In this document: positions 15,806 to 48,346 of the stretch, piece after piece
Position numbering within the stretch: position 1 is the stretch's first letter
How the letters are laid out: every line of letters begins with the position of its first letter
Source of the DNA: Fervidobacterium nodosum Rt17-B1
Lineage (GTDB): Bacteria > Thermotogota > Thermotogae > Thermotogales > Fervidobacteriaceae
DNA length: 64,000 nt
Direction: 5' to 3'
Assembly (NCBI RefSeq): GCF_000017545.1
Contig: NC_009718.1
Span: 1,426,001 to 1,490,000, forward strand
Made by a program: the position numbers and the translations under genes
The notes under the pieces: generated by a model
Seen by the model: the letters and a program-made list of their open reading frames with translations, nothing else
What the model was told of the DNA's origin: nothing
Database searches by the model: none

Positions 15806-16701
15806 TGAAAATCGATTTTGTTGGTAAACGATACTTCTTTATGGCATTATCAGCTGTCCTTATAATTGTTTCAATAATAAGTTTTTTCACCAAGGGATTT
15901 AATCTTGGTTTAGAATTTATCGGTGGAAGCGAAATAGTTGTTAAAGCATCAAAAGATATGACTGTCGCAGACGTAAGACAAAAGATTTCCTCACTTGGTC
16001 AAGAATTTACAAATGCAAGGATACTTGAAGTTCATGCATTGGGTCAAGAAACAGATAAAACATTTTCAATAGTTGTTGCCCCAAAAGACGAAAAAGGACA
16101 ATTGAGAGTTTACACAGCGGACGAAAAAGCGGAGATTTCGAAAAAGATAGAAAACTTACTTAATGCAAAAGTTGCGTCTTTCAATGAAATTAGTGGTGAT
16201 GCAGCGAATGAAATAAAAAATCTTACATGGAAGGCTATAGTATTTACTCTACTTGGTATACTTGTTTACGTTGCTCTTAGATTCAAATTTTCATTTGGTG
16301 TTGGTGCAATATTAGCACTCATACACGATGTTATAATAACAATGGGATTTTATTCTATATTCGGGATTGAAATGAACATCGCAGCTATTGCAGCGTTACT
16401 AACCCTTGTCGGTTACTCTGTTAATGACACTATTATCGTATTCGATAGAATAAGAGAATTTGGAAAGAAATTCAGAGGTAAAGACATAGCGACAATTGTA
16501 AACGATAGTATAAATTCTGTCTTAGTAAGAACTATAAACACATCGTTAACAACCTTCTTTACGGTTTTAATGCTCTTGCTATTTTCAACAGGTGGAATCA
16601 AATCGTTTGCTTTTGGAATGACTATAGGTGTTGTTGTAGGTACATACTCGTCAATATTCATAGCATCCCCAGTAGTAATTAAGTGGGTCAAATCGGTATA
16701 A
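15805..16701 (+). CDS. secF: Protein translocase subunit SecF
   Basis: 298 residues. The N-terminal helix is followed by NLGLEFIGGSEIVV (the SecF counterpart of the SecD head motif), then five membrane helices with VGYSVNDTIIVFDRIRE and RTINTSLTT. Works with SecD and YajC. Last gene of the long plus-strand run, followed by a terminator at 16752. Confidence 0.97.
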   Translation: MKIDFVGKRYFFMALSAVLIIVSIISFFTKGFNLGLEFIGGSEIVVKASKDMTVADVRQKISSLGQEFTNARILEVHALGQETDKTFSIVVAPKDEKGQLRVYTADEKAEISKKIENLLNAKVASFNEISGDAANEIKNLTWKAIVFTLLGILVYVALRFKFSFGVGAILALIHDVIITMGFYSIFGIEMNIAAIAALLTLVGYSVNDTIIVFDRIREFGKKFRGKDIATIVNDSINSVLVRTINTSLTTFFTVLMLLLFSTGGIKSFAFGMTIGVVVGTYSSIFIASPVVIKWVKSV

Positions 16702-32448: not shown

Positions 32449-34008
32449 TTATACGAGATCTTTTCCGGATAAATATACACTGTAGAGTGGAGAAATTTCG
32501 GAATTCTTGAGCTGCCAGCTCTTGCCGTCAAAGATAGCGTATTTGCCATCGAAGAAGAAAGCATAAAGACTGCTATTCACCATCAAGATAGAAACAGCAC
32601 AACTTGGATAGTTGTAAATTCTCGAAGCCTTTCCGTTTTTTGTATCAAAAGTGTATACATTTCCCGCGTTTGTGCCTATGTATATCACATTGCCACTGTA
32701 TGATAGAGCCGTTATCCACTCGCCCTCGAGTTTTAAGACAGGTTTAATGCTCCACCTGTCTGTTTTCTCGAGCAAATAGACTTTTCCGAGTGAGCCTACG
32801 TAAAAGAGATTATCTTTGAGCTTTAGGTAACTGATTAAAGCGTCTTCAGTTACGATAGACGCAGTCAATTTTCCGCCTTTCAATAAAAAGAGCTTTCCAG
32901 AGCCTGAGCCGACTACGATTTCATCCTTTGCCTCAGCAACGAATCGTGCAGATGTGCCTATATTGTATGACCATTTAAGCAAACCCGTTTGAATGGAATA
33001 ATTCTCAACATTTCCATTTTCCCTTGCAACGATAAGTTCATTATTCTTGTAGGATTTTATTATCTTGGCTGAAGAGAAGAAATGCCTTGGCGACTTAGCT
33101 TTATAATCACCCGTAATTGAATATGAATATATCTCCCCCTGCCTGTTGCCTGCAAAAATCGTTGCTCCAACAACCTTCAGAGTACTTACCTCCGATGGCG
33201 AAACATTAATCTTACGCATCTTCTTAAAAGATCCAGCTTTCTTCTCAAATAAAAAAACACTGCCCAACTGTGAAACATAAAGATAGTTACCTTGACTATC
33301 GATTGCCTCGACAGGTGAATCCAAAGAAAGTACCTTTCTGTATTTAACATCCCTGCCAACTATCTGAAACTCATAAACAGTACCATTTGCTGTTCCCACG
33401 ATGAGAGAACTCTCCATAATACTCATCGCATTAACCATAGAACCCAACTCGAACATTTTCACCAAAGAAAAATCAGCTATGTTGGAAAAAACAACACGCC
33501 CATTCTCATCTCCGCTGACTAAGAAATCACCAAAGACAACGATCTTGCGTACCCACGCATCGTGGTACTTCAAACGTTTAAAAAGCTTGAAATCTTTCCA
33601 TACCAAGATACTGTTGTCCGAACCGCCTGAAAACAGATAGTTCTTGTAGAAAGATAGCGTAAAAACAGAAGCTGTATGCCCCTTTAACGTATAGAGGAAT
33701 TTTAGGTTCGATTTATCGTACACCCTAATCTCATTATCTGGCTTATACCCTCCAACAGCTATATATTTATCACTCAGCGCAACGCACCTTGCCCAGCTAC
33801 TGTGAGTTGTAACTGTGTTTAGGAGCACGAGCTCCTTACTCCACACTTTTAACGTTCCATCTGCGCTTACTGAATAAATCAAATTACCGTCTGTTTGGAG
33901 CTCCCAAACGGCATCTTTGTGACCAAAGAGGACGAAATCGAGGGGGAATGAAAGTGTTGTCAGCAAAATAACGAAGACGAAAATAGCAGGAAATGGACTT
34001 CTCTTCAT
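32449..34008 (-). CDS. Secreted WD40/PQQ-like beta-propeller protein
   Basis: About 519 residues. A signal peptide (KRSPFPAIFVFVILLTTLSFP) is followed by WD40-like repeats: FGHKDAVWELQTDGNLIYSVSADGTLKVW, then TLKGHTASVFTLSFYKNYLFSGGSDNSILVW, and at least eight weaker blades with DG or NG turns. No enzymatic residues are seen; it is probably a binding scaffold outside the membrane. ATG 34008, 13 codons inside the open frame, has GAGGT 9 nt ahead and gives a proper signal sequence. Divergent from the helicase operon; an extended -10 (TGTATAAT, 34061-34068) fits its promoter. Confidence 0.75.
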   Translation of the reverse strand: MKRSPFPAIFVFVILLTTLSFPLDFVLFGHKDAVWELQTDGNLIYSVSADGTLKVWSKELVLLNTVTTHSSWARCVALSDKYIAVGGYKPDNEIRVYDKSNLKFLYTLKGHTASVFTLSFYKNYLFSGGSDNSILVWKDFKLFKRLKYHDAWVRKIVVFGDFLVSGDENGRVVFSNIADFSLVKMFELGSMVNAMSIMESSLIVGTANGTVYEFQIVGRDVKYRKVLSLDSPVEAIDSQGNYLYVSQLGSVFLFEKKAGSFKKMRKINVSPSEVSTLKVVGATIFAGNRQGEIYSYSITGDYKAKSPRHFFSSAKIIKSYKNNELIVARENGNVENYSIQTGLLKWSYNIGTSARFVAEAKDEIVVGSGSGKLFLLKGGKLTASIVTEDALISYLKLKDNLFYVGSLGKVYLLEKTDRWSIKPVLKLEGEWITALSYSGNVIYIGTNAGNVYTFDTKNGKASRIYNYPSCAVSILMVNSSLYAFFFDGKYAIFDGKSWQLKNSEISPLYSVYLSGKDLV

Positions 34009-34132
34009 CTCGTACAACCTCACAATGACAATCATAGGGATATTCACCTTGTTCAGAGTTATTATACACCTATTGTTAAGAATCTAACTTTATCTCTAAG
34101 CAATATAAAGATTTCAATAAAATTAATTGTGA

Positions 34133-34162
34133 TTGACTTTAACAAGTCAAAAGTGATAAAAT
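34133..34162 (+). promoter_or_regulatory. Promoter with overlapping palindrome for the helicase operon
   Basis: TTGACT (34133-34138) is followed after 18 bp by TAAAAT (34157-34162). The -35 is part of a perfect inverted repeat, TTGACTT-TAAC-AAGTCAA (34133-34150), a likely repressor site. The first gene starts 66 bp downstream of the -10. Confidence 0.65.
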
Positions 34163-34227
34163 TCATATAGATATAAACTGAAACAGGCAAAGTGAAACAG
34201 TATTGTATCTGAAAGGGGATTGATATT

Positions 34228-34947
34228 ATGTCTCTTGATTCGCTAGTTGGTTATATGATGTTTTCTGTAATTATCTCTGTTGTTACTCTAGTACTTGCAA
34301 TTGCCTATGGCGTCGTGATTTATTTTGCCATAAGGAAAACAAGAGAAATGTTGTTAGAAATTCATTCATCATCAAAGCAATTATTCGAAATTGTTCAGCG
34401 CATTGAACAAAGGAGTGAAGTACTAAATACTGTGGACTTAAGGTTACAAGCCATAGAGATGCGACTGAAGGAGCTCAAGGAAGCTGTTTCTAACCAATTC
34501 TATGAAACAAAAACAAACTTATCAGAAATAGGTAGCTCCTTAGATGATACCATGAATCACATAGGGGAGATTGATTCTAAACTTATTAGACTAAACCAAA
34601 TTTTCGAACAAAATAAGGAAACTATAGAAAGACAGCTGAAAGAAATCGGAGAAAACGTTTCTAAACGATTTGATGAAACAAAACTGAATATATCCAAAAT
34701 AATTAATTCCTTGGATGAAACTAAGAGTCGAATAGAAGAAGTAGATTCTAAATTATTAAGGCAAAACCAAATTCTTGAACAATACCAAGAAACTCTAAAA
34801 GAGTTACTTGAATTAAATACTAGAACGAGCGATTTGATTTCACAAACGGAAATGCTAAAGATAGAAATTCAAAGACTCAGGGACGTTCTAAACGAACCAT
34901 TAGATCTCTCAGAGTGGGTTGATGGAAATGGAACAAGCAAAGAATGA
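34228..34947 (+). CDS. Membrane-anchored coiled-coil protein with internal repeat
   Basis: 239 residues. One N-terminal membrane helix (about 8-34) is followed by a Lys/Arg segment and then an almost uninterrupted coiled coil (about 40-220). Two tandem copies of a 57-residue unit lie at about 81-135 and 138-192; each contains an F-(Y/D)-E-T-K block, a SLD block and DSKL. The shape recalls RmuC or chemoreceptor-like coiled coils, but there is no enzyme domain. Its end overlaps the helicase gene by 29 nt, so the two are co-translated and probably work together. RBS AAAGGGGAT. Confidence 0.8.
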   Translation: MSLDSLVGYMMFSVIISVVTLVLAIAYGVVIYFAIRKTREMLLEIHSSSKQLFEIVQRIEQRSEVLNTVDLRLQAIEMRLKELKEAVSNQFYETKTNLSEIGSSLDDTMNHIGEIDSKLIRLNQIFEQNKETIERQLKEIGENVSKRFDETKLNISKIINSLDETKSRIEEVDSKLLRQNQILEQYQETLKELLELNTRTSDLISQTEMLKIEIQRLRDVLNEPLDLSEWVDGNGTSKE

Positions 34948-37900
34948 GACTATAATAAATTACATAGCCTATTTACGTGACATAAGCAGGAAGATCGGAA
35001 CCAAAACAGATTTTGCTAAGATTTTTACGAACGCCCTTAAGAGAAGGGGAATGGGCAGCTACGTGATTCCGATATCTAACAGTCAGGAGTTTAAAGTGGT
35101 ATCAGAAGATACTGTTGATATCAGGCGGAATAGTAGACTTTATGAAGCACTCCTCAAAATCTATCCGACGTTGGAAAAATATTCAGATAAGAAGTTGTTT
35201 CTCGGTGTAGGAGGTGTATTTGGTCAAAGGAAATATGCTGGTCCATTTTTAGTTGCTGAGTGCGAAATTGAAGCTTATAAAGGAAGTGGTTTTTCTTTAT
35301 ACATAGACGTTTCATCGTCAGTACTCAACTATGACCTAATTTCAAAGTTACTTGACAAAAAACGAGTTGTTGCGGATGATGAGGAAGAGTATGTTGACCC
35401 CGAGTTAGAGAAAGAAATTGAAGCTATAAGTGACATAGAGGATAAATTATCAGTCATAAGCGGAATTTCCGAGCTCTTAGAATTTGGTCAAAAAGCTTTC
35501 AAACTATTACAAGACAGTCTGAATGATTTCAAAGACATATTTGATGTTTCCAAAACGTGTTTAATCAATTTACCTGAAAATGATACCTTACATTCAAAAG
35601 ATTTTGAAGATCATGAATGGATTGATAGATTGGATTTTCTTTACAAATCAAGCAAAATTCTCTTCTTAAACGAAGGATATTTATTCATGGCTCAGGTTCC
35701 CAATGAAATATCTACCTATCAATCTTTAAGCCGATTGATCGATGAAGTTAGAAAAAATGAGAGCTTTGAGAATAGAGTGCTTGAGAAATTGCTGAACGGT
35801 TCCTTTTTCAGCGATATTCAACGTACCGAGTATGAACCAGAGGAATTTGAAAATATATCAACAGTTATAGAAAAACTTATGCCAATTCCCTTGTCACCGG
35901 CACAAGTGAGAGCCTTGCAAAATGCTTTCAGCCACGATATGAGCTACATTCAAGGTCCTCCAGGTACCGGAAAGTCTCACACGATTTCTGCAATGGTTTT
36001 AGCGGCAATATTAACAGGAAGAAAAGTCCTTGTTGTATCACAAAAACCACCGGCAGTAAAAGTTGTAAAAGAAAAAGTAGAAGGTGTTTTGAAGAATAAT
36101 GACTCTAACTTAAAGATTTTACCGCTCATATACTTTGACAAACAAACAAAAGCTGATCTTAAAGATTCATTGAAATCTCTACTGAATGAATATTCTAATC
36201 CGTATTACTTGGAATCGAGAATTAAGACTATAAGAACCAAGAAGCAAGAAATAGAAAATCAACTTCAGTCAAAGATTACTGATCTTAATAGGATTCAGAA
36301 TGAGTATGAAGAAAGTTTAAGAAAACAGAAGCACTTTATCAATTTAAGCAATGAGCTTCAAAAGATGAAAGACAAGTTCAGATATGCTTATAACTATGAT
36401 TTGTCAAAGGAGGTGTTAGCAAACGTATCTGATGACAACTTGAAGAAAATATCAAAGCTATCTGTGCTAGCGAGAAAGCTTGACAACATTTCAGAAAATA
36501 GGGTCACAATACTTTACAAAATAAACCTTGGAAAGGTTGTCATGAAAATATCACCTGTTAAACTTAGTGGAAGAGTAATATTAAACATTCTCAAAAGAAG
36601 GATTTTCCACCAATTTCTTCAAGACATTATCAACGTTGGTTCTCTGAATCTAAGTATTCGTCGCACAACAATTAAGGACCCGGCCTTTTTACAAGAGGAA
36701 ATATCAAGGATAAAGAAAGAGCTTTGGGACTTGAAAAGGCACTATATAGTGCTGGAGAATCAAGTTAGAATCTTGGAAGGTATTCGTACATCTCGTGAGC
36801 AGATAGAGTATTTTTCAAAGCTTTTATCGTACAAGAAACCAACACTAATTAAAGAATACCAGTCATATATCGACTGGGAAAAGATATTGGAAGTATTTCC
36901 TGTGTGGATTTCTGAAATCAGGAATCTCACAGAGATTTTACCGGTGAAAGCAAATATGTTCGATTTAGTTGTAGTCGATGAAGCTTCACAAGTTAACTTA
37001 GCTGAAATTATTCCCGCTTTTTATAGGGGAAAGAAAATATGTATAGTTGGTGATCATAAGCAACTCAACCTAAATGCCACAGGGTTAGATTTTCTTATTA
37101 GCAAGAATCTTGACAGACTGACGTGGGAAAAGTATCGTCCAAACAACCTGACATATCAGGAAGCTCGTGCAAAACAGCTTACTGTAACAACTTCTTCAAT
37201 ATTAGATTTCATAATGCAGGACGAGAGAGCTTTAGCACTTCCTCGTACGATGTTGGATGAGCATTTTAGATCCCTACCCGCCTTGGCTAAATTTAACAAC
37301 GAGAAGTTCTATGAGGGAAAGCTTAAAATAATGACTGAAACACCTGAAAAGATTTCATTAACGTGTTTCTTCCCAATAAAGGTTAACGGAAGGAGACAAA
37401 GCGATAAAACTGTTATTGAAGAGGCTGAGAAAGTAATAGAGATTATTACTGAACTTATCAAGTATAGAAAATGCAAAGACTTTGAACTCCATCATTTGGT
37501 ACCAAAGGATTTTACCATAGGTGTGGTATCGTTTATTAGAAATCAAGTAGAACTAATCAAAGACCTAATTTATGAAACATTCGACCCTGATACTACAGGA
37601 AAACATGATATTATTACAGGAACTCCTGAAGAGTTGCAAGGTCATGAAAGAGATATAATGATACTTTCATTGGCTTTGGATGAGAGTTCATCGAGGAGTT
37701 CAACATTCTATGAGAATAAAAATCGATTTAACGTTGCAACTAGCAGAGCTAAGTACGTTACCTTTGTTGTTTATTCAAGTGTACCTGATAATTTTGCTTT
37801 AACGAGAGCATATTTCAGCAATTTTGGATTTGAACCCAATGTCTTTGGTAGTACCGAGCAACAGAAATTTACATCACCAATAGTTTGGAAGCTGGACTTA

Positions 37901-38293
37901 ATGGCAATGGAATCGGAATTTGAAAAAATCGTATTCAAATACCTAAATGAGTACATACAAGGGAGAAAAGAAGTATCTGAACTTAAAATATTCAATCAGG
38001 TAAAGTCTTGTGGTAAGAGGCTGGATTTTGTAGTTTATAATCCTCGAAATGGTCATTATGTTGCGGTAGAAGTTGATGGAGTACATCATTTTGTTGAAGA
38101 TGGTCGAAACTATTCAGAAAGCCATATCGAAAGGATGGAAATGCTCAGAAGGGCTGGTTGGAAAATAATTAACACGCCGTACTATAAGTGGTACAATCAT
38201 GGATGGCTTGATGAAAATTCTGAAATCTTAAAAAGAGAAATAGAAAGGATCTATAAGGAACTTGATAAATCGCTTGGCATAAGAATAGATTAA
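34919..38293 (+). CDS. SF1 (COG1112/Upf1-like) helicase with C-terminal PD-(D/E)XK nuclease domain
   Basis: 1124 residues. About 340 N-terminal residues are of unknown fold. The helicase core has Walker A GPPGTGKS (346-353), DEASQ (687-691), GDHKQL (711-716), EHFRS (781-785), EELQGHERDI near 905 and NRFNVATSRAK near 940. A charged coiled-coil insert of about 300 residues separates Walker A from Walker B. The last 150 residues have a Vsr/DUF559-like nuclease: RLDFVVYN, then VAVEVDGVHHF, and ERMEMLRRAGWKII. This domain set occurs in phage-defence helicases. It is co-translated with the coiled-coil protein and ended by a terminator. Confidence 0.9.
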   Translation: MMEMEQAKNETIINYIAYLRDISRKIGTKTDFAKIFTNALKRRGMGSYVIPISNSQEFKVVSEDTVDIRRNSRLYEALLKIYPTLEKYSDKKLFLGVGGVFGQRKYAGPFLVAECEIEAYKGSGFSLYIDVSSSVLNYDLISKLLDKKRVVADDEEEYVDPELEKEIEAISDIEDKLSVISGISELLEFGQKAFKLLQDSLNDFKDIFDVSKTCLINLPENDTLHSKDFEDHEWIDRLDFLYKSSKILFLNEGYLFMAQVPNEISTYQSLSRLIDEVRKNESFENRVLEKLLNGSFFSDIQRTEYEPEEFENISTVIEKLMPIPLSPAQVRALQNAFSHDMSYIQGPPGTGKSHTISAMVLAAILTGRKVLVVSQKPPAVKVVKEKVEGVLKNNDSNLKILPLIYFDKQTKADLKDSLKSLLNEYSNPYYLESRIKTIRTKKQEIENQLQSKITDLNRIQNEYEESLRKQKHFINLSNELQKMKDKFRYAYNYDLSKEVLANVSDDNLKKISKLSVLARKLDNISENRVTILYKINLGKVVMKISPVKLSGRVILNILKRRIFHQFLQDIINVGSLNLSIRRTTIKDPAFLQEEISRIKKELWDLKRHYIVLENQVRILEGIRTSREQIEYFSKLLSYKKPTLIKEYQSYIDWEKILEVFPVWISEIRNLTEILPVKANMFDLVVVDEASQVNLAEIIPAFYRGKKICIVGDHKQLNLNATGLDFLISKNLDRLTWEKYRPNNLTYQEARAKQLTVTTSSILDFIMQDERALALPRTMLDEHFRSLPALAKFNNEKFYEGKLKIMTETPEKISLTCFFPIKVNGRRQSDKTVIEEAEKVIEIITELIKYRKCKDFELHHLVPKDFTIGVVSFIRNQVELIKDLIYETFDPDTTGKHDIITGTPEELQGHERDIMILSLALDESSSRSSTFYENKNRFNVATSRAKYVTFVVYSSVPDNFALTRAYFSNFGFEPNVFGSTEQQKFTSPIVWKLDLMAMESEFEKIVFKYLNEYIQGRKEVSELKIFNQVKSCGKRLDFVVYNPRNGHYVAVEVDGVHHFVEDGRNYSESHIERMEMLRRAGWKIINTPYYKWYNHGWLDENSEILKREIERIYKELDKSLGIRID

Positions 38294-38324
38294 ATTATCG
38301 AATTTGGAGCTGCAAATAATTCTA

Positions 38325-38345
38325 AGCCCTGGATTGTCCAGGGCT
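38325..38345 (+). terminator. Terminator of the helicase operon
   Basis: An 8-bp stem, AGCCCTGG with CCAGGGCT (38325-38332 with 38338-38345), and a 5-nt loop, followed by ATTTGTTT. Confidence 0.8.
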
Positions 38346-38453
38346 ATTTGTTTAATCTTAACCTGAACGGCGATCCAAATGTTTGCAATAAGCAGAAGAA
38401 TGTGATTAAATATTATAAGCTTCAATAACTTCTTTCTTCAAGGAGCTGGTCTT

Positions 38454-39710
38454 ACGAAACGATACTGGGTTAAACTGAATCCTATTGTCTACATCGTATT
38501 TGGCGGATTACTGTTTGCCAATTTTCTTATCTACAACAAATACATATGGCTACTCGATATAGCTGCCGCAGGTTTCGTTTGGCATTACCTTAACCTGCTT
38601 AACACTGCAAAGAGAGTCGCAGTAAACGTAAAAGCCAGGGCAAGGGTTTTTGCAAATGAACCTTTTGAGCTAAGCATTGAGTTAATCTCCAAGAACAGAA
38701 GTAGCGTAACCATTGAAGTGATTCCGCCCGTGATTATAAAAAAAGAGCCAGTCTTCATCACGCTTCAACCAGATAAAAGAGAAGTCGTCACATTCACAAC
38801 GGCATTCGGCACGAGAGGAATCAAGAAGTTGGGGGCTTATTCTGTTAGAATCAAGAGTTTCACAGAACTTTTCAGCATTTATATAACAGAGGAAATAAAT
38901 TCAGACGTGAGGGTACTGCCAAATCTGGAAGAAGCCGACGCCTCGGTTGAGAGGATATTGGAAATGTTGCCCGTTTTGAAGAGCAAGTACAAACTCGCAG
39001 AGGATATTTCGTACATAAAAAACATACGGGAATACCAAAACGAACCGATGAACCGCATCCACTGGAAACAGAGCGCAAGGATGGACAAACTGATGGTGAA
39101 GGAGTACGAATACTCAGGAACTGCGAAAAATTACATCGTCTTGGATTTGAATTTACCGGGTGGGATATATTCAAAAGAAGCTTGGAGATACATCCATAAA
39201 AAATATCAAGAAGAGTCCATCAAGGCAGTTGCGGGTTTGGTTAAGCACTTCTCCGAAAGGCACGAAAAGACTAATCTCTTCATCTCGCACTCGAAAGGCA
39301 TATACGACATCACAGACAGCGACTACGTCTTCTTCTTTGACTACCTTTCGGAAGTTGAGGGAGCTATCGATAACAATAATTCCACCACGGAACTGCTCGA
39401 GCATATCATAGAAGGCGTTCAGCCGACTGATACGGTGCTGGTAATAAGCATGTTCTTGACGAAAGAGGAAGTGGAGAAACTGATTAGACTGCGTTCAAGA
39501 TGCGGCAGGGTTCTTGTCCTACTCATGCCGTATGGATATCGCGAAGCGACAACGAAAAAATTCAAGTCGTACTTTGACGTCCCGGTTGAAATCAGAGAAC
39601 TCTACAAATTCGCAAGAACACTGGAAGAGGAGAACATAATCATCCAGATATGGCACGAGAACACGAGCTTGGTGGAAGGGCTGTTGAAGATATCAGGTTC
39701 TGAAATGTGA
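38454..39710 (+). CDS. DUF58 family protein, apparent ACG start
   Basis: 418 residues when read from ACG 38454. Two N-terminal membrane helices (PIVYIVFGGLLFANFLIY and the following WLLDIAAAGFVWHYLNLL) precede a beta-rich region and the DUF58 block NRIHWKQSARMDKLMVKEYE, which continues into a von Willebrand A-like fold. DUF58 proteins work with MoxR ATPases; moxR lies 1.5 kb away facing it. No ATG, GTG or TTG gives this N-terminus; AAGGAG (38440-38445) sits 8 nt before the ACG. The first internal ATG, 38718, would delete both helices. Confidence 0.75.
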   Translation, partial: TKRYWVKLNPIVYIVFGGLLFANFLIYNKYIWLLDIAAAGFVWHYLNLLNTAKRVAVNVKARARVFANEPFELSIELISKNRSSVTIEVIPPVIIKKEPVFITLQPDKREVVTFTTAFGTRGIKKLGAYSVRIKSFTELFSIYITEEINSDVRVLPNLEEADASVERILEMLPVLKSKYKLAEDISYIKNIREYQNEPMNRIHWKQSARMDKLMVKEYEYSGTAKNYIVLDLNLPGGIYSKEAWRYIHKKYQEESIKAVAGLVKHFSERHEKTNLFISHSKGIYDITDSDYVFFFDYLSEVEGAIDNNNSTTELLEHIIEGVQPTDTVLVISMFLTKEEVEKLIRLRSRCGRVLVLLMPYGYREATTKKFKSYFDVPVEIRELYKFARTLEEENIIIQIWHENTSLVEGLLKISGSEM

Positions 39711-39733
39711 ACAGAAGGTGAGCTGATGATATT

Positions 39734-41200
39734 ATGACATTAGCTTTATCAAAATTCTTAATTATGTTCTTTTCATTTGCCAGTATTGAAAAGAGCTTAA
39801 TACTCAATATCCATTTTTGGATATACTTAGCTCTTGCCATAATATCAATCATATTTATGTACAACAAAAAGAAACTACTCACTTCAATTTTTTCGATTGT
39901 AACAATACTATTCAGTATCTCTTTCTTGGAAACATATGTACTTGCTTGTATATCAGCACTGTTGCTCGTTTTAGCCTCGCTGAGCAAAAAATACTCGAAC
40001 AAATGGTTGATAAGCTTTATCTACATATTTATCCTCAGCTTAACGCACCATTCACTGTCTCCGATTCTTGCTCTGATCTACATCTTGCTGACATTCCCTG
40101 AATTGATGCAACCTAAGAGAAATGGAGAAAATAAAATATGGATATTTGTATTGTTGATAGCATTAATCTTTATTGCTCCCTTACCTGATTTAAGGTTCAA
40201 CACGGACGCTTTGAAAGAAGATAACGGTGTTGTGTATACACCTAAGGATTTAAATGTTACTCCAGAACAAAGCGGAAATACTCAAGCAGTGCAAACAAAC
40301 AAGAAAAACACCGCTGAGAACTTGAACAAATCGGAAAGCTTAACTGCAGATGCTTATGCGGAGAGAATTTCGCTAATCAGAAAAATAGATTATTTTATCA
40401 ACATTGACTTCATTGTCGGACTCGTAATAGGCTTGATATTCATAGCATACATCTTTACATCTGTCCTGAGAACTTCGGACAGCAAGCAGAAAAAGAAATT
40501 GGTAAAATCACTTGTCCTAAGCTTAGCAGTTTTGATAACCTTCTTTGCAATTTTTCCATTTGTTTTGAACATAGCTGGAAATAGAACAGTAGAGAATATA
40601 AACCAGATGAGAACTGCAACGAACTCAACATCATCAGGAACATCAGGCTTAAATTCTGTTGCGCAAATCCCAAAAACTTCACAAAATAACACTGCTGAGA
40701 TTACTAAGAACAGCTTGAACGATGAACTCAACAAACTAAGGCTCATACTCATATTCAAATTCATCACAGCGGTGATTGGAGTGGCTTCTCTAATTTGGAT
40801 TGGGAAATCTTTCGTAGAGATGTTAATGACAAAAGAAGTAGCACAAGAACAGGCGGAAAGTGCCAACGCTCAGGGTGAGGCTACCGGATACAGAACACCG
40901 CACAGTTACGATGAGATATTAAAAATGAACGGTGCACAATTCGTGCACCATGCGTACCACTATATACGCCAGACATTTTATCCAACGCTCAATCACTTGA
41001 CGCCGTATGAGCTGCTTGAAAAATTCCCTTCAAAAGAATTGAGGAACTTAACCGATGCATATGTCTTGGTTGAGTATGCCTTTAAAGTTAATGTCGAAGA
41101 TGAAAATATAGAATCTCTTAAACTCAGCTTTTCACACTTTATAAAAGAAATGGAAGCATTGCTATTTGCAAGAGATGACAACAGAGAACAATTCATTTGA
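39734..41200 (+). CDS. Multispanning membrane protein with DUF4129-like C-terminus
   Basis: 488 residues. About five membrane helices fill the first 155 residues, then a polar Asn/Thr/Ser-rich extracytoplasmic loop, two more helices (about 225 and 265), another polar loop and a last helix near 345. The cytoplasmic C-terminus has LTPYELLEKFP and RNLTDAYVLVEYAF, like DUF4129 domains that accompany DUF58 and MoxR genes. It lies 23 nt behind the DUF58 gene and ends 5 bp from the facing moxR. The role is unknown. Confidence 0.7.
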   Translation: MTLALSKFLIMFFSFASIEKSLILNIHFWIYLALAIISIIFMYNKKKLLTSIFSIVTILFSISFLETYVLACISALLLVLASLSKKYSNKWLISFIYIFILSLTHHSLSPILALIYILLTFPELMQPKRNGENKIWIFVLLIALIFIAPLPDLRFNTDALKEDNGVVYTPKDLNVTPEQSGNTQAVQTNKKNTAENLNKSESLTADAYAERISLIRKIDYFINIDFIVGLVIGLIFIAYIFTSVLRTSDSKQKKKLVKSLVLSLAVLITFFAIFPFVLNIAGNRTVENINQMRTATNSTSSGTSGLNSVAQIPKTSQNNTAEITKNSLNDELNKLRLILIFKFITAVIGVASLIWIGKSFVEMLMTKEVAQEQAESANAQGEATGYRTPHSYDEILKMNGAQFVHHAYHYIRQTFYPTLNHLTPYELLEKFPSKELRNLTDAYVLVEYAFKVNVEDENIESLKLSFSHFIKEMEALLFARDDNREQFI

Positions 41201-41205
41201 TAAAC

Positions 41206-42138
41206 TCATTCTTTGCTTATAACGGCAACCTTACTTAGTATACTTTCTATAATCTCCTCTTTCGTTTCCCTAAGAATTTTCGATTCTGTAGTTTGGATTA
41301 TTCTGTGGACAAGTACGTACGGAGCAACGTTTTTAACATCGTCAGGCAAGACAAAGTCGCGGTTGTTCAAGTAAGCCCACGCCATGCTCATGTGCATCAA
41401 TGCCAGACTGCCCCTTGGGCTCGCGCCGTATTTGAGTGATTCGTGATTTCTCGTAGCATCGACTATGCTGACTATGTATTCTTTCACCTCGTCGCTAACT
41501 CTTACGCTTCTTACTTTGCTTTTTTCCTGTGCAAACAACTCACCGTTACCAACAGGTTTGAGTTCTTCAATTGGATGTCTAACTTTTTGCGATTCCAGAA
41601 CTTCCATTTCACTTTCTTTATCGGGATACCCAATGCTTATGCGTACCATGAACCTGTCAAGCTGAGCTTCTGGCAGAGGGAAAGTGCCTTCGTATTCTAT
41701 TGGGTTCTGGGTTGCGATGACAAAGAAGTTGTTCGATAGTTTTCTGGTTACGCCGTCTACTGTGACTTGTCTTTCTGCCATCGCTTCAAGTAGTGCGGAT
41801 TGTGTTCTTGGCGTAGCGCGGTTGATTTCATCGGCTAAGAGTATGTCTGTGAATATAGGTCCTTCTTTGAATGTGAATGTGTCGTTTTTCCTGTCGTAGA
41901 TGGACAAGCCTGTTAGGTCTGTGGGCAACAAGTCGGGAGTAAACTGGACACGTTTGAAATCCAGTCCTAAGGATATCGCAAGTGCACGTGCGAGGATTGT
42001 TTTGCCTACGCCCGGGACGTCTTCCAACAAAACGTGCCCGCCAGCGTACATTGCGGCAAGTACGAGTCTAATCTTTTCGTCTTTTCCCTTTATTACTTTC
42101 TTGACGTTTTCTAAAACTTTTTCATGCAATTTTTCCAT
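41206..42138 (-). CDS. MoxR-family AAA+ ATPase
   Basis: 310 residues. Walker A is DVPGVGKTILARALA, Walker B LLADEINRATPRTQSALLEAM, sensor 1 ATQNPIEYEGTFPLPEAQLDRFMV, and the C-terminal lid contains ASPRGSLALM. MoxR ATPases act as chaperones for metal insertion or assembly with DUF58/VWA proteins; here those partners are on the opposite strand. Its start overlaps the stop of the DUF6485 gene by 1 nt. Confidence 0.93.
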   Translation of the reverse strand: MEKLHEKVLENVKKVIKGKDEKIRLVLAAMYAGGHVLLEDVPGVGKTILARALAISLGLDFKRVQFTPDLLPTDLTGLSIYDRKNDTFTFKEGPIFTDILLADEINRATPRTQSALLEAMAERQVTVDGVTRKLSNNFFVIATQNPIEYEGTFPLPEAQLDRFMVRISIGYPDKESEMEVLESQKVRHPIEELKPVGNGELFAQEKSKVRSVRVSDEVKEYIVSIVDATRNHESLKYGASPRGSLALMHMSMAWAYLNNRDFVLPDDVKNVAPYVLVHRIIQTTESKILRETKEEIIESILSKVAVISKE

Positions 42139-42344
42139 TATTTTCTTCCCCTGTCTCTTATGAAGTTTTCAATCGACCTGTCCCAAGTTCTTTCCCCTTC
42201 TTTTGTGAAGAAGCAACCCGGTATTTCGCCGAGGCTTCTGTGATAAGCCACACACTCGCAGCACTTTCCTCTTTTGTCGCACGATGTGTAGGTGCATGTA
42301 CAATTCTTGAGGTTCCTTTCGAGTGATGGACAACCTGTCGGCAT
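42138..42344 (-). CDS. Small Cys-rich DUF6485-like protein
   Basis: 68 residues with CPSLERNLKNCTCTYTSCDKR and GKCCECVAYHRSLGEIPGCFF: eight or more cysteines suited to a metal or Fe-S site. The pattern matches the family now named DUF6485. ATG 42344 follows GGGGGGAAT by about 5 nt; a longer open frame to 42383 exists. Translationally coupled to moxR. A DDE insertion sequence begins within about 100 bp upstream. Confidence 0.78.
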   Translation of the reverse strand: MPTGCPSLERNLKNCTCTYTSCDKRGKCCECVAYHRSLGEIPGCFFTKEGERTWDRSIENFIRDRGRK

Positions 42345-42425
42345 CGATATTCCCCCCATTCTTGTTTTGATTTTGTTAACCAAAGGTATTGATAAATTTC
42401 AAAAATCATATTATCTTCTTAAAGA

Positions 42426-43451
42426 GGGGACACCCCCCAATATACTCTCAATAAGGAGGTATCCTGACATGACTAATATCCAACTCAAATGCCCTCATTG
42501 TGGCTCTTCTAACTTCATCAAAAACGGTCATGATAAGTTCAAAAACCAAATCTTCTTTTGCAAAGACTGCAAGCGTTACTTTAAACTTTCTTTCACCAAA
42601 AAACACAAACTCTTCTCTTTCCCTTACCCTCGTTGTGTTCATTGTAACCATGTCATGGAAATTTACAAAATCCGCCGTTATTTCGTTCGTTTCAGATGCA
42701 GAAAGTGCAACTTCAAAACTTCTGTTCCACTTTCTCTTCCTCAGCCTGTGCCTTTCAACTTTCATCCTTTCAAATTCTTCCGTTTCCCTATCTATATCAT
42801 TCTCAAAGCTTTCATCTTGTACTTCAAATACAACCTTTCTCTTCGTGCTATTAAAGCTTGCTTGAATATCAATGTCTCTCATGTTGCTATTTACAAATGG
42901 ATTATCAAGTTATCTTCTGTTATTTCGCTTTTTGAGTTTGAGAATGTATTTAAAGTTCACGGTGATGAAACAGTTATTGTATTTCGAGACAAAAAGTACT
43001 ATGTGTGGCTATTAGTTGAGCATGGTACGAATTTAATAGTAGCTTGGCATGTATCAAGATATCGTGATATGTCACAAGTTAAGATATTGTTAGATAAATA
43101 CTTTAGTCAAAGAAAACAAAACACACAAATAGAGTTAATAACCGATGGACTAAAAGCGTACGAGATAGCAGTGAAACTAAATTTTGATAATGTTGAGCAC
43201 AGAGAAGTAAGACTAGGTAAAAACAACGAATGTGAATCGAAATTTTCGTTATTTAAGATGTTTGTTAGAGCAAAAAGGAGCTTCAAGAAATTTAGCAACA
43301 TACGGTACTATGTAAATGGTTTTTGTGTAGTAAGGAACCTATGCAAGTTATATGAGAACGAAAATGAGATGATTACAGCTTTAGCTTCCATCATCACTAC
43401 TAGTTAACAGCATCTTCTGAAGTGTGGCTTACTAAAATATTGAATATCCCC
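42426..43451 (+). mobile_element. DDE insertion sequence, ends tentative
   Basis: One intact transposase gene lies between weakly similar ends: GGGGACA...CAATAT at 42426 and its inverse ...ATATTGAATATCCCC ending at 43451. No target duplication is visible beside these ends, so they are provisional. Confidence 0.5.
42469..43407 (+). CDS. DDE transposase with two N-terminal zinc ribbons (IS6/IS1-like)
   Basis: 312 residues from ATG 42469, 5 nt after AAGGAGGTATC; the open frame runs further upstream but lacks a ribosome site there. Zinc ribbons: CPHCGSSNFIKNGH...CKDCKRYF and CVHCNHVMEIY...CRKCN. A short helix-turn-helix (LSLRAIKACLNINVSHVAIYKWI) is followed by the catalytic core HGDETVIVF, LITDGLKAYEIAV and ECESKFSLFK. 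Intact. The closest type is uncertain: IS6/IS240-like or IS1-like. Confidence 0.85.
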   Translation: MTNIQLKCPHCGSSNFIKNGHDKFKNQIFFCKDCKRYFKLSFTKKHKLFSFPYPRCVHCNHVMEIYKIRRYFVRFRCRKCNFKTSVPLSLPQPVPFNFHPFKFFRFPIYIILKAFILYFKYNLSLRAIKACLNINVSHVAIYKWIIKLSSVISLFEFENVFKVHGDETVIVFRDKKYYVWLLVEHGTNLIVAWHVSRYRDMSQVKILLDKYFSQRKQNTQIELITDGLKAYEIAVKLNFDNVEHREVRLGKNNECESKFSLFKMFVRAKRSFKKFSNIRYYVNGFCVVRNLCKLYENENEMITALASIITTS

Positions 43452-44971: not shown

Positions 44972-47900
44972 TTGATAGAAGCCATATTTAAGAACCTTTG
45001 TCCAAATTGCGGGGGAGATATAACTTCTGAGAGATTGTTGAATGGTTTACTTTGCGAAAAATGCTTGCCCCAACAAGTTTCAAAAGAATTTTTGTGTGAA
45101 CACATAAAAGAAGAAAAATATGATTTGTGCTCTTTAAAGGAAAGGTACAATGATTGGGAAAAGGTATTTAGAAAATTTATTGGATTTGATCCTTGGGAAC
45201 TTCAGAAATTCTGGGCTAGAAAATTACTCTTAGGAAGGTCATTTGCACTACTTGCCCCCACGGGAATAGGTAAAACTTCGTGGGGGCTCGCTACTGCTTT
45301 ATATTTTTCCAAAAAAGGTAAAAGATCGTACATAATATTACCTACAAAACTTCTCATTCTTCAAAGCTATGAGAAATTGAAAGATAAAGTTAAAGAATCT
45401 GATTTACTTGTTTTTGGGCTTGATGAGAGCAATAAAGAAAGAGAAGAAAAGAAAAAAAGATTGGCTAATGGTGATTTCAAAATACTAATCACCTCTTCGA
45501 TGTTTCTTTATAAAAATGTTGACCTCATCCCCAAGGATTTCGCTTTTATTTTTGTAGATGATGTTGATTCGTTCTTGAAGACGGCAAAAAATATCGATAA
45601 AGCGCTGTATCTTTTAGGATTTGACGAGAAAGACATAAGTTTTACAATGAATTACATAAAAATGAAGAGAACGCAAGCGAATGAAGAGAAAGTAAAAGCA
45701 ATGCAAGAAGAAGTAAGAAAAATTGCAAGCAAAGCTAAGGGAGTAATGGTGGTAGCGTCCGCAACTAGTGACCCAAAATCCGAGAGAATAAGATTATTCA
45801 AAGAACTCTTATCTTTTGATGTTGGCAGACCTATATTCTATTTAAGAAATGTGGAAGACGTTTACGAAGAAGTAGAAAATCTTGACGATGCACTTGTTAG
45901 AACAGTAAAAAGATTAGGGAAAGGTGGTCTTGTATTTCTTTCGTCTGATTTTGGAAAAGAACGTGTAGATTACATTAAAAACTTACTTGAGAGTAACGGG
46001 ATAAAAACCGAGACATACGAAAACTTGTCTCCAGAAGTTTTAGAAAAATACAGAAAAGGTGAGATAGAAGTTCTTATCGGTATATCTTCTTACAGGAATC
46101 CTTTGGCAAGGGGATTAGATATGCCAGAGGTTATAAGGTACGCGGTTTTTTACGGCGTACCTAAAATTGTTGTTAATCTTGATATCGAAGGTAATGTAAA
46201 GCACCTTTTACTCGCACTTTCTTCCATAAGACCGCTTATCGCAAGGGATAAGGACTTAGAGGAAAAAGTTTCCCTTGTAGATAAATGGATGAAAGCGTTG
46301 AAGAAATTTTCTTCAATGCCAAATCCTCCTGTTGATAAAGTTAACGAGCTAAAAAACGAAATAAAAAATTTCATACTTTCGAAAGAAATACACGAGAAAA
46401 TAAGTAATTCAGATGAAGTTGTTTTAAGGCAAGAAGATGAAAAGTGGATACTAGTTGTTTCAGATATAACAGGATATCTCCAAGCTTCTGGAAGGACTTC
46501 AAGACTTTACGTTGGTGGAATTTCAAAAGGATTAAGTTATATTCTTGTTGACGACAAAAAGGTTTTGAACAACCTATTAAAGAAAAGTAGATGGTGGTTC
46601 AGTACAGATATTACATTTAAAGAAGCTCGTAGCATTAACATAGATGAAATTTTAAGACAAATCGACGAGGACAGAGAAAAAGTTAGGAGGAAAGAAGGTA
46701 GACGAGACGATTTCTTAAAGCCTGTATTAGTCATAGTAGAATCACCTCACAAAGCTTGGACCATTGCAAACTTCTTTGGAAAACCAATCTCAAGAAATGT
46801 GAATGGTCAAGAACTCTATGAGGTAATAACCGAAGATAAATACCTAGTGATAACAGCTTCGTTTGGTCATGTGTTGGACTTGAACAAGGAAATAGGGTAT
46901 TTTGGCGTTATCGAGAAAGAAAAATTCATACCCGTGTATGAACCTATAGATAAAAAAGAAAGAATGATTGAAGGAATAAGAGACGCCAGCAAAGAATTCG
47001 ATATGATACTTGTGGCAACGGACCCTGATACAGAAGGAGAGAAAATCTCTTGGGACTTAAAAAATCTGTGTACACCTTTTGTGAAAGAAATCAGGAGAAT
47101 GGAATTCCACGAAATAACCAAAAAAGCCATACTCAACGCACTTAAAGAATCAAGGAATGTTAATGAAAACCTTGTGAAAGCTCAGGTCGTAAGGCGGATA
47201 TCCGATAGATGGGTCGGTTTCGAACTTTCCCAGCTTATCCAGAAAGTCTTTTCAAAAAGCTCACTTTCCGCGGGGAGAGTACAGACCCCTGTCTTGGGTT
47301 GGGTTATAGAAAGAGCGAAAGAAAATCGGAAAAAGATACATATTGTTTCTGTAAAAAGATACGGGCTTGATATAAAGTTTGAATTTGAAGACAAGCAAAA
47401 AGCTCAGAAATTTTACAATGGCCTAAAGTACATTCAGATAAACAAAAGTTCGGAAAAAATCCAAGAAAAATCACCGCTTCCACCTTACACAACAGATGCG
47501 CTATTGAAAGACGCTTCCGAAAAATACAAAATTTCCGTTTCAAGAACGATGGAAATACTCCAAGAATTGTTCGAAAGAGGATTCATCACATACCATCGTA
47601 CAGACTCTACGAGAGTATCAGATGTTGGAATAAGCGTTGCAAAAAGTTATATAGCTGAACAATTTGGTGAAGAATATTTCAAAGGAAGAACATGGGGCGA
47701 AGGTGGAGCGCACGAATGCATAAGACCAACAAGAGTACTTGATGTCGAAGATATAAAATCGATGATCTACTCAGGCGAACTTGAAGATTTTACGCCAGAT
47801 CACCTGAAAATTTATGATTTAATATTCAAAAGATTCATATCATCTCAAATGAGAAATGTTGTAGTTAAAAGTTGTGATATTACAGTCAAAGCCTTCGACA

Positions 47901-48346
47901 AAGAGCAGACATTTGAAATATATGAAGAAATCATCCAAGAAGGTTACAACAAAATATTCCCAATCAAACTTACGAAAATACCTACTGGGGAAGTTGTTGT
48001 GGTGAATTATAAATCCTTCTACAGCGTTCCGAAAGTACCTTTATTCACGCAAGGTACACTCGTAGAAGAGATGAAAAAACGTGGTCTTGGAAGACCATCT
48101 ACGTATGCCACAATTGTAAGTCGATTACTTGAGAGAGGATACGTCGTAGAAAAAGAAGGATACCTGATACCGACACCGCTAGGTGAGAAAGTGTACAAAT
48201 TCTTAAACTCCAGTCCAGAGAAATTTAAATTTGTAAGAGAAGACTTTACAAGAGAACTTGAACAACTTATGGACAAAGTAGAACTTGGCGAAGAAGATTA
48301 CCAAAAGATACTTAAAAATCTAAAAATGGAAATTGAGAGAATTTGA
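44972..48346 (+). CDS. rgy: Reverse gyrase
   Basis: 1124 residues, full length. N-terminal zinc finger CPNCGG...CEKC, helicase-like module with Walker A APTGIGKTSWG and Walker B VDDVDSF, then topoisomerase IA module from about residue 590: VIVESPHKAWTIANFFG, ATDPDTEGEKIS, and the catalytic tyrosine in FITYHRTDSTRVS. No second zinc finger of the usual cysteine pattern is evident near the topoisomerase start. It puts positive supercoils into DNA and marks a thermophile. TTG start at 44972 after AAGGAGTGAT. Confidence 0.97.
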   Translation: MIEAIFKNLCPNCGGDITSERLLNGLLCEKCLPQQVSKEFLCEHIKEEKYDLCSLKERYNDWEKVFRKFIGFDPWELQKFWARKLLLGRSFALLAPTGIGKTSWGLATALYFSKKGKRSYIILPTKLLILQSYEKLKDKVKESDLLVFGLDESNKEREEKKKRLANGDFKILITSSMFLYKNVDLIPKDFAFIFVDDVDSFLKTAKNIDKALYLLGFDEKDISFTMNYIKMKRTQANEEKVKAMQEEVRKIASKAKGVMVVASATSDPKSERIRLFKELLSFDVGRPIFYLRNVEDVYEEVENLDDALVRTVKRLGKGGLVFLSSDFGKERVDYIKNLLESNGIKTETYENLSPEVLEKYRKGEIEVLIGISSYRNPLARGLDMPEVIRYAVFYGVPKIVVNLDIEGNVKHLLLALSSIRPLIARDKDLEEKVSLVDKWMKALKKFSSMPNPPVDKVNELKNEIKNFILSKEIHEKISNSDEVVLRQEDEKWILVVSDITGYLQASGRTSRLYVGGISKGLSYILVDDKKVLNNLLKKSRWWFSTDITFKEARSINIDEILRQIDEDREKVRRKEGRRDDFLKPVLVIVESPHKAWTIANFFGKPISRNVNGQELYEVITEDKYLVITASFGHVLDLNKEIGYFGVIEKEKFIPVYEPIDKKERMIEGIRDASKEFDMILVATDPDTEGEKISWDLKNLCTPFVKEIRRMEFHEITKKAILNALKESRNVNENLVKAQVVRRISDRWVGFELSQLIQKVFSKSSLSAGRVQTPVLGWVIERAKENRKKIHIVSVKRYGLDIKFEFEDKQKAQKFYNGLKYIQINKSSEKIQEKSPLPPYTTDALLKDASEKYKISVSRTMEILQELFERGFITYHRTDSTRVSDVGISVAKSYIAEQFGEEYFKGRTWGEGGAHECIRPTRVLDVEDIKSMIYSGELEDFTPDHLKIYDLIFKRFISSQMRNVVVKSCDITVKAFDKEQTFEIYEEIIQEGYNKIFPIKLTKIPTGEVVVVNYKSFYSVPKVPLFTQGTLVEEMKKRGLGRPSTYATIVSRLLERGYVVEKEGYLIPTPLGEKVYKFLNSSPEKFKFVREDFTRELEQLMDKVELGEEDYQKILKNLKMEIERI

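Follow-up and report, generated by a model that had tools for sequence, protein, structure and literature searches.

Bacterial immune systems often contain helicases fused to nucleases. Mokosh systems are defined by a COG1112 RNA helicase and a PLD-family nuclease domain (PMC11672841). In the CoCoNuTs of type III-B, the CnuH helicase carries a Vsr-like domain and the coiled-coil protein CnuA is encoded separately, and CoCoNuTs as a whole centre on McrB/McrC-type genes, CnuB and CnuC (PMC11090510). RAP domains, which bind RNA in organelles (PMC11879112, PMC8190603), have been reported from just a handful of proteomes among bacteria and archaea (PMC8190603). FASTKD4 has Asn570 where Vsr has a histidine and appears to be inactive (PMC11879112).

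We analysed a 64-kb stretch of DNA, called the window (positions 1,426,001-1,490,000 of a genome of 1.95 Mb in one contig). On its forward strand, at 34133-38345, lies an operon in which two overlapping genes stand between a promoter and a terminator; its neighbours are genes for a WD40 and a DUF58 protein. Like Mokosh, the operon encodes a UPF1-like helicase of the COG1112 type that is fused to a nuclease. The helicase core of gene 2 matches MkoA (6e-42) and MkoC (3e-41) with partial coverage, chiefly of the core, and the same two models match all of the relatives tested. However, the nuclease has the RAP/Vsr fold and not that of PLD, there is no kinase domain, and the partner is a membrane coiled-coil protein. 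The PLD nuclease domain was absent in Pfam scans of eight members (the window helicase and seven relatives), and gene 1 did not match MkoB. A preliminary description of this DNA had named Mokosh among the phage-defence systems in which COG1112-type helicases are fused to nucleases; the likeness of the helicase core stands, but the PLD nuclease domain is missing.

With the CoCoNuTs the locus shares a UPF1-like helicase, a long helical/coiled-coil insertion after motif I, a Vsr-like nuclease and a coiled-coil partner. No McrB-type GTPase or McrC homologue was found in the window operon or its neighbours (WD40, DUF58); in the relatives, neighbouring open reading frames were read and only some of them were scanned. 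The best-scoring models, PDC-S37 (a PADLOC candidate), ProA and Hhe (both NCBIfam), also combine a helicase core with a Vsr-like end, but they span 1550-1911 positions, compared to 1124 residues in the window helicase. Gene 2 scores 154 bits against a curated cut-off of 1500 for ProA and 77 against 2000 for Hhe, and PDC-S37, which has no curated cut-off, covers only parts of it. No model in PADLOC 2023, NCBIfam 2026 or Pfam fits the whole pair, so that the search recommended in the preliminary description gave no exact match to a named system. The distant large helicase-nuclease relatives that we inspected have no small membrane partner adjoining them. With the mitochondrial FASTK/RAP proteins (FASTKD4, PDB 9gek) gene 2 shares the RAP/Vsr fold and the sequence profile; unlike FASTKD4 with its Asn570, the window domain keeps both the Asp and the His, and it is fused to a helicase.

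In the literature searched, mainly open-access journal papers, we found no phage-defence system with a RAP-domain helicase. We know of no helicase-nuclease fusion with a dedicated membrane tether, and none was found in the literature searched. Within the helicase-nuclease (COG1112) kind of immunity, to which the pair would belong, we count its membrane rod and its RAP nuclease as novel.

The operon and its two proteins

The features of the locus are collected in Table 1. Gene 2 may start at TTG 34919 or, equally possibly, at ATG 34922; the overlap with gene 1 is 29 nt in the first case, as described earlier, and 26 nt in the second. The single promoter and the terminator behind the helicase gene were likewise borne out. 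The palindrome over the -35 element is real, but it is weak evidence, since about 0.18 such 7-bp inverted repeats are expected by chance per stretch of the window's length. Among the loci fetched, it occurs only in the window and in the near-identical copy of the genome G012. No Rfam families were found in the window between 31000 and 44000.

Table 1. Features of the operon, the block that contains it and the rod genes of the family (relation: overlap or gap with respect to the helicase gene)
Feature	Position	Strand	Basis or detail
Predicted sigma-70-type promoter, TTGACT-18-TAAAAT with TG	34133..34162	+	sequence
Perfect 7-bp inverted repeat TTGACTT-TAAC-AAGTCAA over -35	34133-34150	+	sequence
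Gene 1, membrane-anchored coiled-coil protein, 239 aa	34228..34947	+	ORF
Transmembrane segment of gene 1, residues 13-31	34264..34320	+	hydropathy
57-residue internal repeat, first copy, residues 74-130	34447..34617	+	self-comparison
57-residue internal repeat, second copy, residues 131-187	34618..34788	+	self-comparison
C-terminal tail of gene 1, VLNEPLDLSEW	34885..34917	+	common to homologues
Gene 2, UPF1-like SF1 helicase with C-terminal RAP/Vsr-type nuclease, 1124 aa	34919..38293	+	Pfam AAA_11, AAA_12, RAP; fold search
Helicase motif I, GPPGTGKS	35954..35977	+	sequence
Helicase motif II, DEASQ	36977..36991	+	sequence
Nuclease domain, residues 999-1124; conserved E1002, D1036, E1051, D1053, H1057	37913..38290	+	Pfam, predicted structure, alignment
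Intrinsic terminator stem-loop, then T-rich tail	38325..38345	+	sequence
Recently transferred block with the pair, 9,913 bp	32456..42368	.	99.96% identical to G012, four differences
Rod gene, window/G012			239 aa; overlap 29 nt
Rod gene, L096			142 aa; overlap 17 nt
Rod gene, L099			223 aa; overlap 4 nt
Rod gene, L101			176 aa; gap 3 nt
Rod gene, L094			124 aa; gap 17 nt
Rod gene, L139			186 aa; gap 1 nt
Rod gene, L140			174 aa; overlap 4 nt
Rod gene, L141			133 aa; overlap 4 nt
Rod gene, L142			170 aa; overlap 8 nt
Rod genes, L143	6775-7941		tandem 238 + 133 aa, common tail; overlap 4 nt; helicase frame broken

Beyond its transmembrane segment, the gene 1 product is a helical rod with a heptad-like periodicity of 3.5. 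Positive charges follow the segment, and by the positive-inside rule the rod is probably cytoplasmic. Self-comparison gives 40 identities at an offset of 57 residues, against 20 at the next-best offset tested, and at the DNA level the repeat is 73.6% identical across 148 nt; the membrane-anchored coiled-coil protein with a 57-residue tandem repeat was thus described correctly. Matches of gene 1 to SMC, ZorA, JetC and LmuB were discarded as effects of coiled-coil composition.

The Pfam scan of gene 2 gave the two helicase halves AAA_11 and AAA_12, followed by RAP at the C-terminus. The SF1 motifs I, II, III, V and VI are intact and nearly invariant across the family; the preliminary description had likewise noted a 1124-residue helicase with all SF1 motifs. 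The full-length model is only moderately confident (pLDDT 69, pTM 0.52), and its best matches in a fold search were Senataxin/Sen1 (SETX), Aquarius, UPF1, IGHMBP2 and Dna2. By its SF1 motifs and by folds of the UPF1/Sen1/IGHMBP2/Dna2 group, the protein belongs to the UPF1-like SF1 helicases of the COG1112 kind.

The C-terminal domain matches Pfam RAP above the cut-off (E 1.3e-13) and MTES_1575 below that model's cut-off. Its predicted structure (143 residues, from a seven-sequence alignment) has a pLDDT of 85 and a pTM of 0.82, and the order of its elements, alpha-beta-beta-beta-alpha-beta, is that of the PD-(D/E)XK nuclease core. Among solved structures the model resembles I-Bth0305I, AbaSI, the FAST1-FAST2-RAP module of FASTKD4, BpuSI and Vsr. 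These matches are moderate (E-values of 1e-3 to 1e-1), yet they agree with the sequence profile. In the predicted structure a Glu stands in helix 1, an Asp in a strand, and ExD and His around the next strand, as in the Vsr/EDxHD/RAP branch of PD-(D/E)XK nucleases. In our reading of the alignment, H1057 would be the counterpart of H69 of Vsr. Across 103 Thermotogota genomes, the window and G012 gave by far the best matches to the RAP model (7e-15, the next being 4e-5), and 14 control genomes gave none. The domain had been described as a Vsr/DUF559-like nuclease end; such an end is real, and with the predicted structure it is best described as RAP-type with a Vsr fold.

Ten of twelve family members retain the residues expected of a Vsr-type active site (E1002, D1036, E1051-x-D1053 and H1057). 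The other two, L094 and L102, have lost them, and L094 still has the coiled-coil partner, so that not every member can depend on cleavage. Although the target of both Vsr and Dna2 is DNA, RNA appears to be the somewhat likelier substrate, given the UPF1-like motor and the RAP-type nuclease.

The gene pair in related genomes

With the helicase sequence alone as query, just one other close copy came to light, in G012, and the species-level genome collection yielded no relative; scans of viral contigs with general SF1 motifs gave mostly unrelated matches. The scan that succeeded used an alignment exposing only three family-specific islands, two rows of which are masks and not real proteins. The full-length relatives it yielded come from Hydrogenothermaceae, Thermocrinis, one bin each of Planctomycetota and Bacteroidia, and an IMG/VR contig; copies that are shortened or broken turned up in Sulfurihydrogenibium, Calescibacterium and one bin of Nitrospirae. 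When 136 Aquificota genomes were searched with a profile, five more genomes with the family helicase were added. The family helicases are 34-52% identical to the window protein; the plasmid and phage collections held only relatives of about 21-33%, over part of the length. In the tree the window protein groups with two proteins of Hydrogenothermaceae, that is, of another phylum, Aquificota (support 97/96). Large DUF559-type helicases from G012, G014, G023, G089 and BREX plasmids were rejected as members: those included in the tree have no coiled-coil partner and form a separate deep group there. One distantly related helicase-nuclease, in the same-family genome G023 (L034:5876-9744), is split over several frames and probably decayed.

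In ten loci a gene of 124-239 codons for a transmembrane/coiled-coil protein lies on the same strand at -29 to +17 nt from the helicase start (Table 1). The synteny of the two genes across genomes, which the preliminary description proposed to check, is thus conserved. The rods align poorly along their length, yet most share the tail LLxEPhxxxEL / L(L/N)xEPhxxxEh or a weaker form of it. The tail is clear in VLNEPLDLSEW, LLKEPIDIEEW, LLMEPILDESEL, LLKEPLTEEDL and LLTEPILDESEL, weaker in LLTEEITDKDL, IKAPLDFSE and LNQPVKLLEE, and missing from the L094 rod. Rod lengths vary through unrelated internal duplications, with offsets of 57, 50, 87, 29 and 52 residues; in one case an 87-nt stretch of DNA is duplicated exactly. 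We infer that selection acts on the length of the rod and on its tail, and not on the rod sequence.

There are exceptions to the pairing. The L100 helicase is split across several frames with an apparent transposase fragment upstream, the L098 copy contains many stops, and in L097 the contig data stop within the gene. The nuclease-dead L102/L147 helicase has no rod partner and is the last gene of an SspF-, mad7/SspG-, mad8/HerA-like operon.

Defence-type genes neighbour the family in part of the loci only, and several other loci lie amid housekeeping genes. A Csx1 CARF-HEPN gene adjoins L098, MNT/HEPN genes lie beside L100, and an SspFGH/HerA-type operon (SspF, mad7, mad8-HerA) surrounds the L102 helicase. 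In L141, a CRISPR-like array (15889-16401, 8 repeats, GTTTCAATCCCCTATAGGTACAAACAAAAC) stands about 4.6 kb from the rod-helicase pair. The Bacteroidia operon with SspF-, mad7/SspG- and mad8/HerA-like genes and the nuclease-dead family helicase extends over L147:65-13727; it is a possible variant of the SspFGH/MADS modules. In an Aquificota locus (L142:4499-7933), an apparent reverse gyrase gene lies directly downstream of the family helicase and slightly overlaps it. A similar gene is present in the window at 44972-48346, about 7 kb away from the operon, which is probably a coincidence.

Distribution and transfer of the operon

The family helicase was found in 2 of 103 Thermotogota, 8 of 136 Aquificota and 1 of 392 Planctomycetota genomes; a second, much weaker match in Planctomycetota is fragmentary. 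A helicase present throughout the genus at a fixed housekeeping locus without the coiled-coil gene had been named as the case that would speak against a defence system, and with 2 of 103 Thermotogota genomes this case did not occur. In three genomes (G013, G014, G015), the flanking WD40 and DUF58 genes lie next to each other in divergent orientation, and their aligned ends are about 270-290 nt apart, compared to about 4.5 kb in the window. Therefore, the operon was inserted into the intergenic region between two divergent genes. The sites of the relatives are about 4.2 kb shorter here, which agrees with the operon having been called self-contained. The nearest empty sites are about 68% identical to the window in the flanking genes. 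A second, native WD40/DUF58 locus of the host (884.5-899 kb) is diverged and does not contain the operon.

The block shared with G012 comprises a truncated WD40 gene, the operon, the DUF58 gene, a membrane protein gene and MoxR. G012 is another species, and a control 12-kb segment is only 72-77% identical between it and the host. In G012 the block stands in a gene order conserved in relatives, i.e. at its native locus. In the window it is bounded by an IS110-like transposase gene on one side and a multicopy IS on the other, and its edge shortens the WD40 gene to 532 of 864 codons. Because the block is nearly identical between genomes that otherwise differ, is in native order in G012 and is bounded by IS elements in the window, the operon most likely entered the host genome very recently from a G012-like donor.

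Two further observations concern the block. The multicopy IS (42369-43414) begins exactly at the block end and has more than 10 near full-length copies in the host genome, with 98-100% identity. In the DUF58 gene (38454-39710), homology extends upstream of the first ATG/GTG/TTG (38718). The start candidate behind an AAGGAG site is ACG 38454, and the gene may have a non-canonical start or be impaired.

Possible function of the pair

The two genes recur together but sporadically in several phyla, most of them heat-loving, and probably form a mobile system against viruses (or plasmids) that has not been described before. We consider defence the most likely role of the operon, with moderate confidence, because a nuclease is combined with a helicase, the distribution is patchy, transfer was recent and also crossed phyla, an empty site exists and the association with defence genes is partial. 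The possible new defence system of the preliminary description gains from the conserved pair, the mobile accessory distribution and the SspFGH/HerA-type context, but its anti-phage role is something that we infer.

The gene 1 product would consist of an N-terminal membrane anchor, a cytoplasmic coiled-coil rod of evolutionarily adjustable length and a short conserved end peptide. Through a presumed contact, rod and tail peptide would tether the helicase-nuclease to the inner membrane. There the helicase may load onto RNA or single-stranded DNA of an invading phage or plasmid and translocate, passing the strand to the nuclease, which would cut it as it is delivered. We propose this membrane-tethered loading and feeding from the anatomy of the two proteins. 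It is possible, though tentative, that the coiled coil is a ruler, its length tuned by duplication, that presents the UPF1-like helicase to the invading nucleic acid, and that an active bacterial RAP nuclease, a catalytically intact relative of the FASTK RAP domain, cuts RNA.

RNase Y and the RNase E complexes are examples of membrane-tethered RNA turnover. The operon might similarly be a membrane-anchored module of RNA decay or quality control, in which the rod tethers a UPF1-like RNA helicase-ribonuclease for the turnover of cellular or stress RNA and not primarily for defence. The closest folds are indeed mostly RNA helicases (Sen1, SETX, UPF1, Aquarius), organelle RAP domains bind RNA, as cited above, and several loci lie amid housekeeping genes. 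However, presence is very patchy within the genus, the family and the phylum, there are transfer between species and empty sites, and one family member lies within an SspFGH/HerA-type operon, so that we regard such a role as rather unlikely.

A shared promoter with an operator-like palindrome, the overlap of the two genes, a membrane-anchored partner and a mobile distribution would also suit an anti-plasmid or selfish stabilisation module of the abortive or addiction type, in which a trigger sensed at the membrane frees the nuclease and the rod is the sensor or the restraint. We think this improbable: a helicase of such length does not resemble toxin-antitoxin pairs, a palindrome of this kind is close to what chance would yield, and nothing indicates that gene 1 restrains gene 2. 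That the helicase is part of a system already known, above all Mokosh (MkoA/MkoB or MkoC), with the coiled-coil gene as an accessory, is largely refuted by the missing PLD domain and is very unlikely, given that the MkoA and MkoC matches of the core, shared by the relatives tested, are limited to parts, MkoB is not matched and the nuclease has another fold.

If the pair is indeed a mobile defence system, its dedicated membrane tether would suggest surveillance at the entry point of foreign DNA or RNA. Because RAP domains are rare in bacteria (PMC8190603) and FASTKD4 appears inactive (PMC11879112), a family with intact RAP active-site residues would offer a direct route to asking what an active RAP domain cuts. 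Many of its members are thermophilic, which is favourable for structural work.
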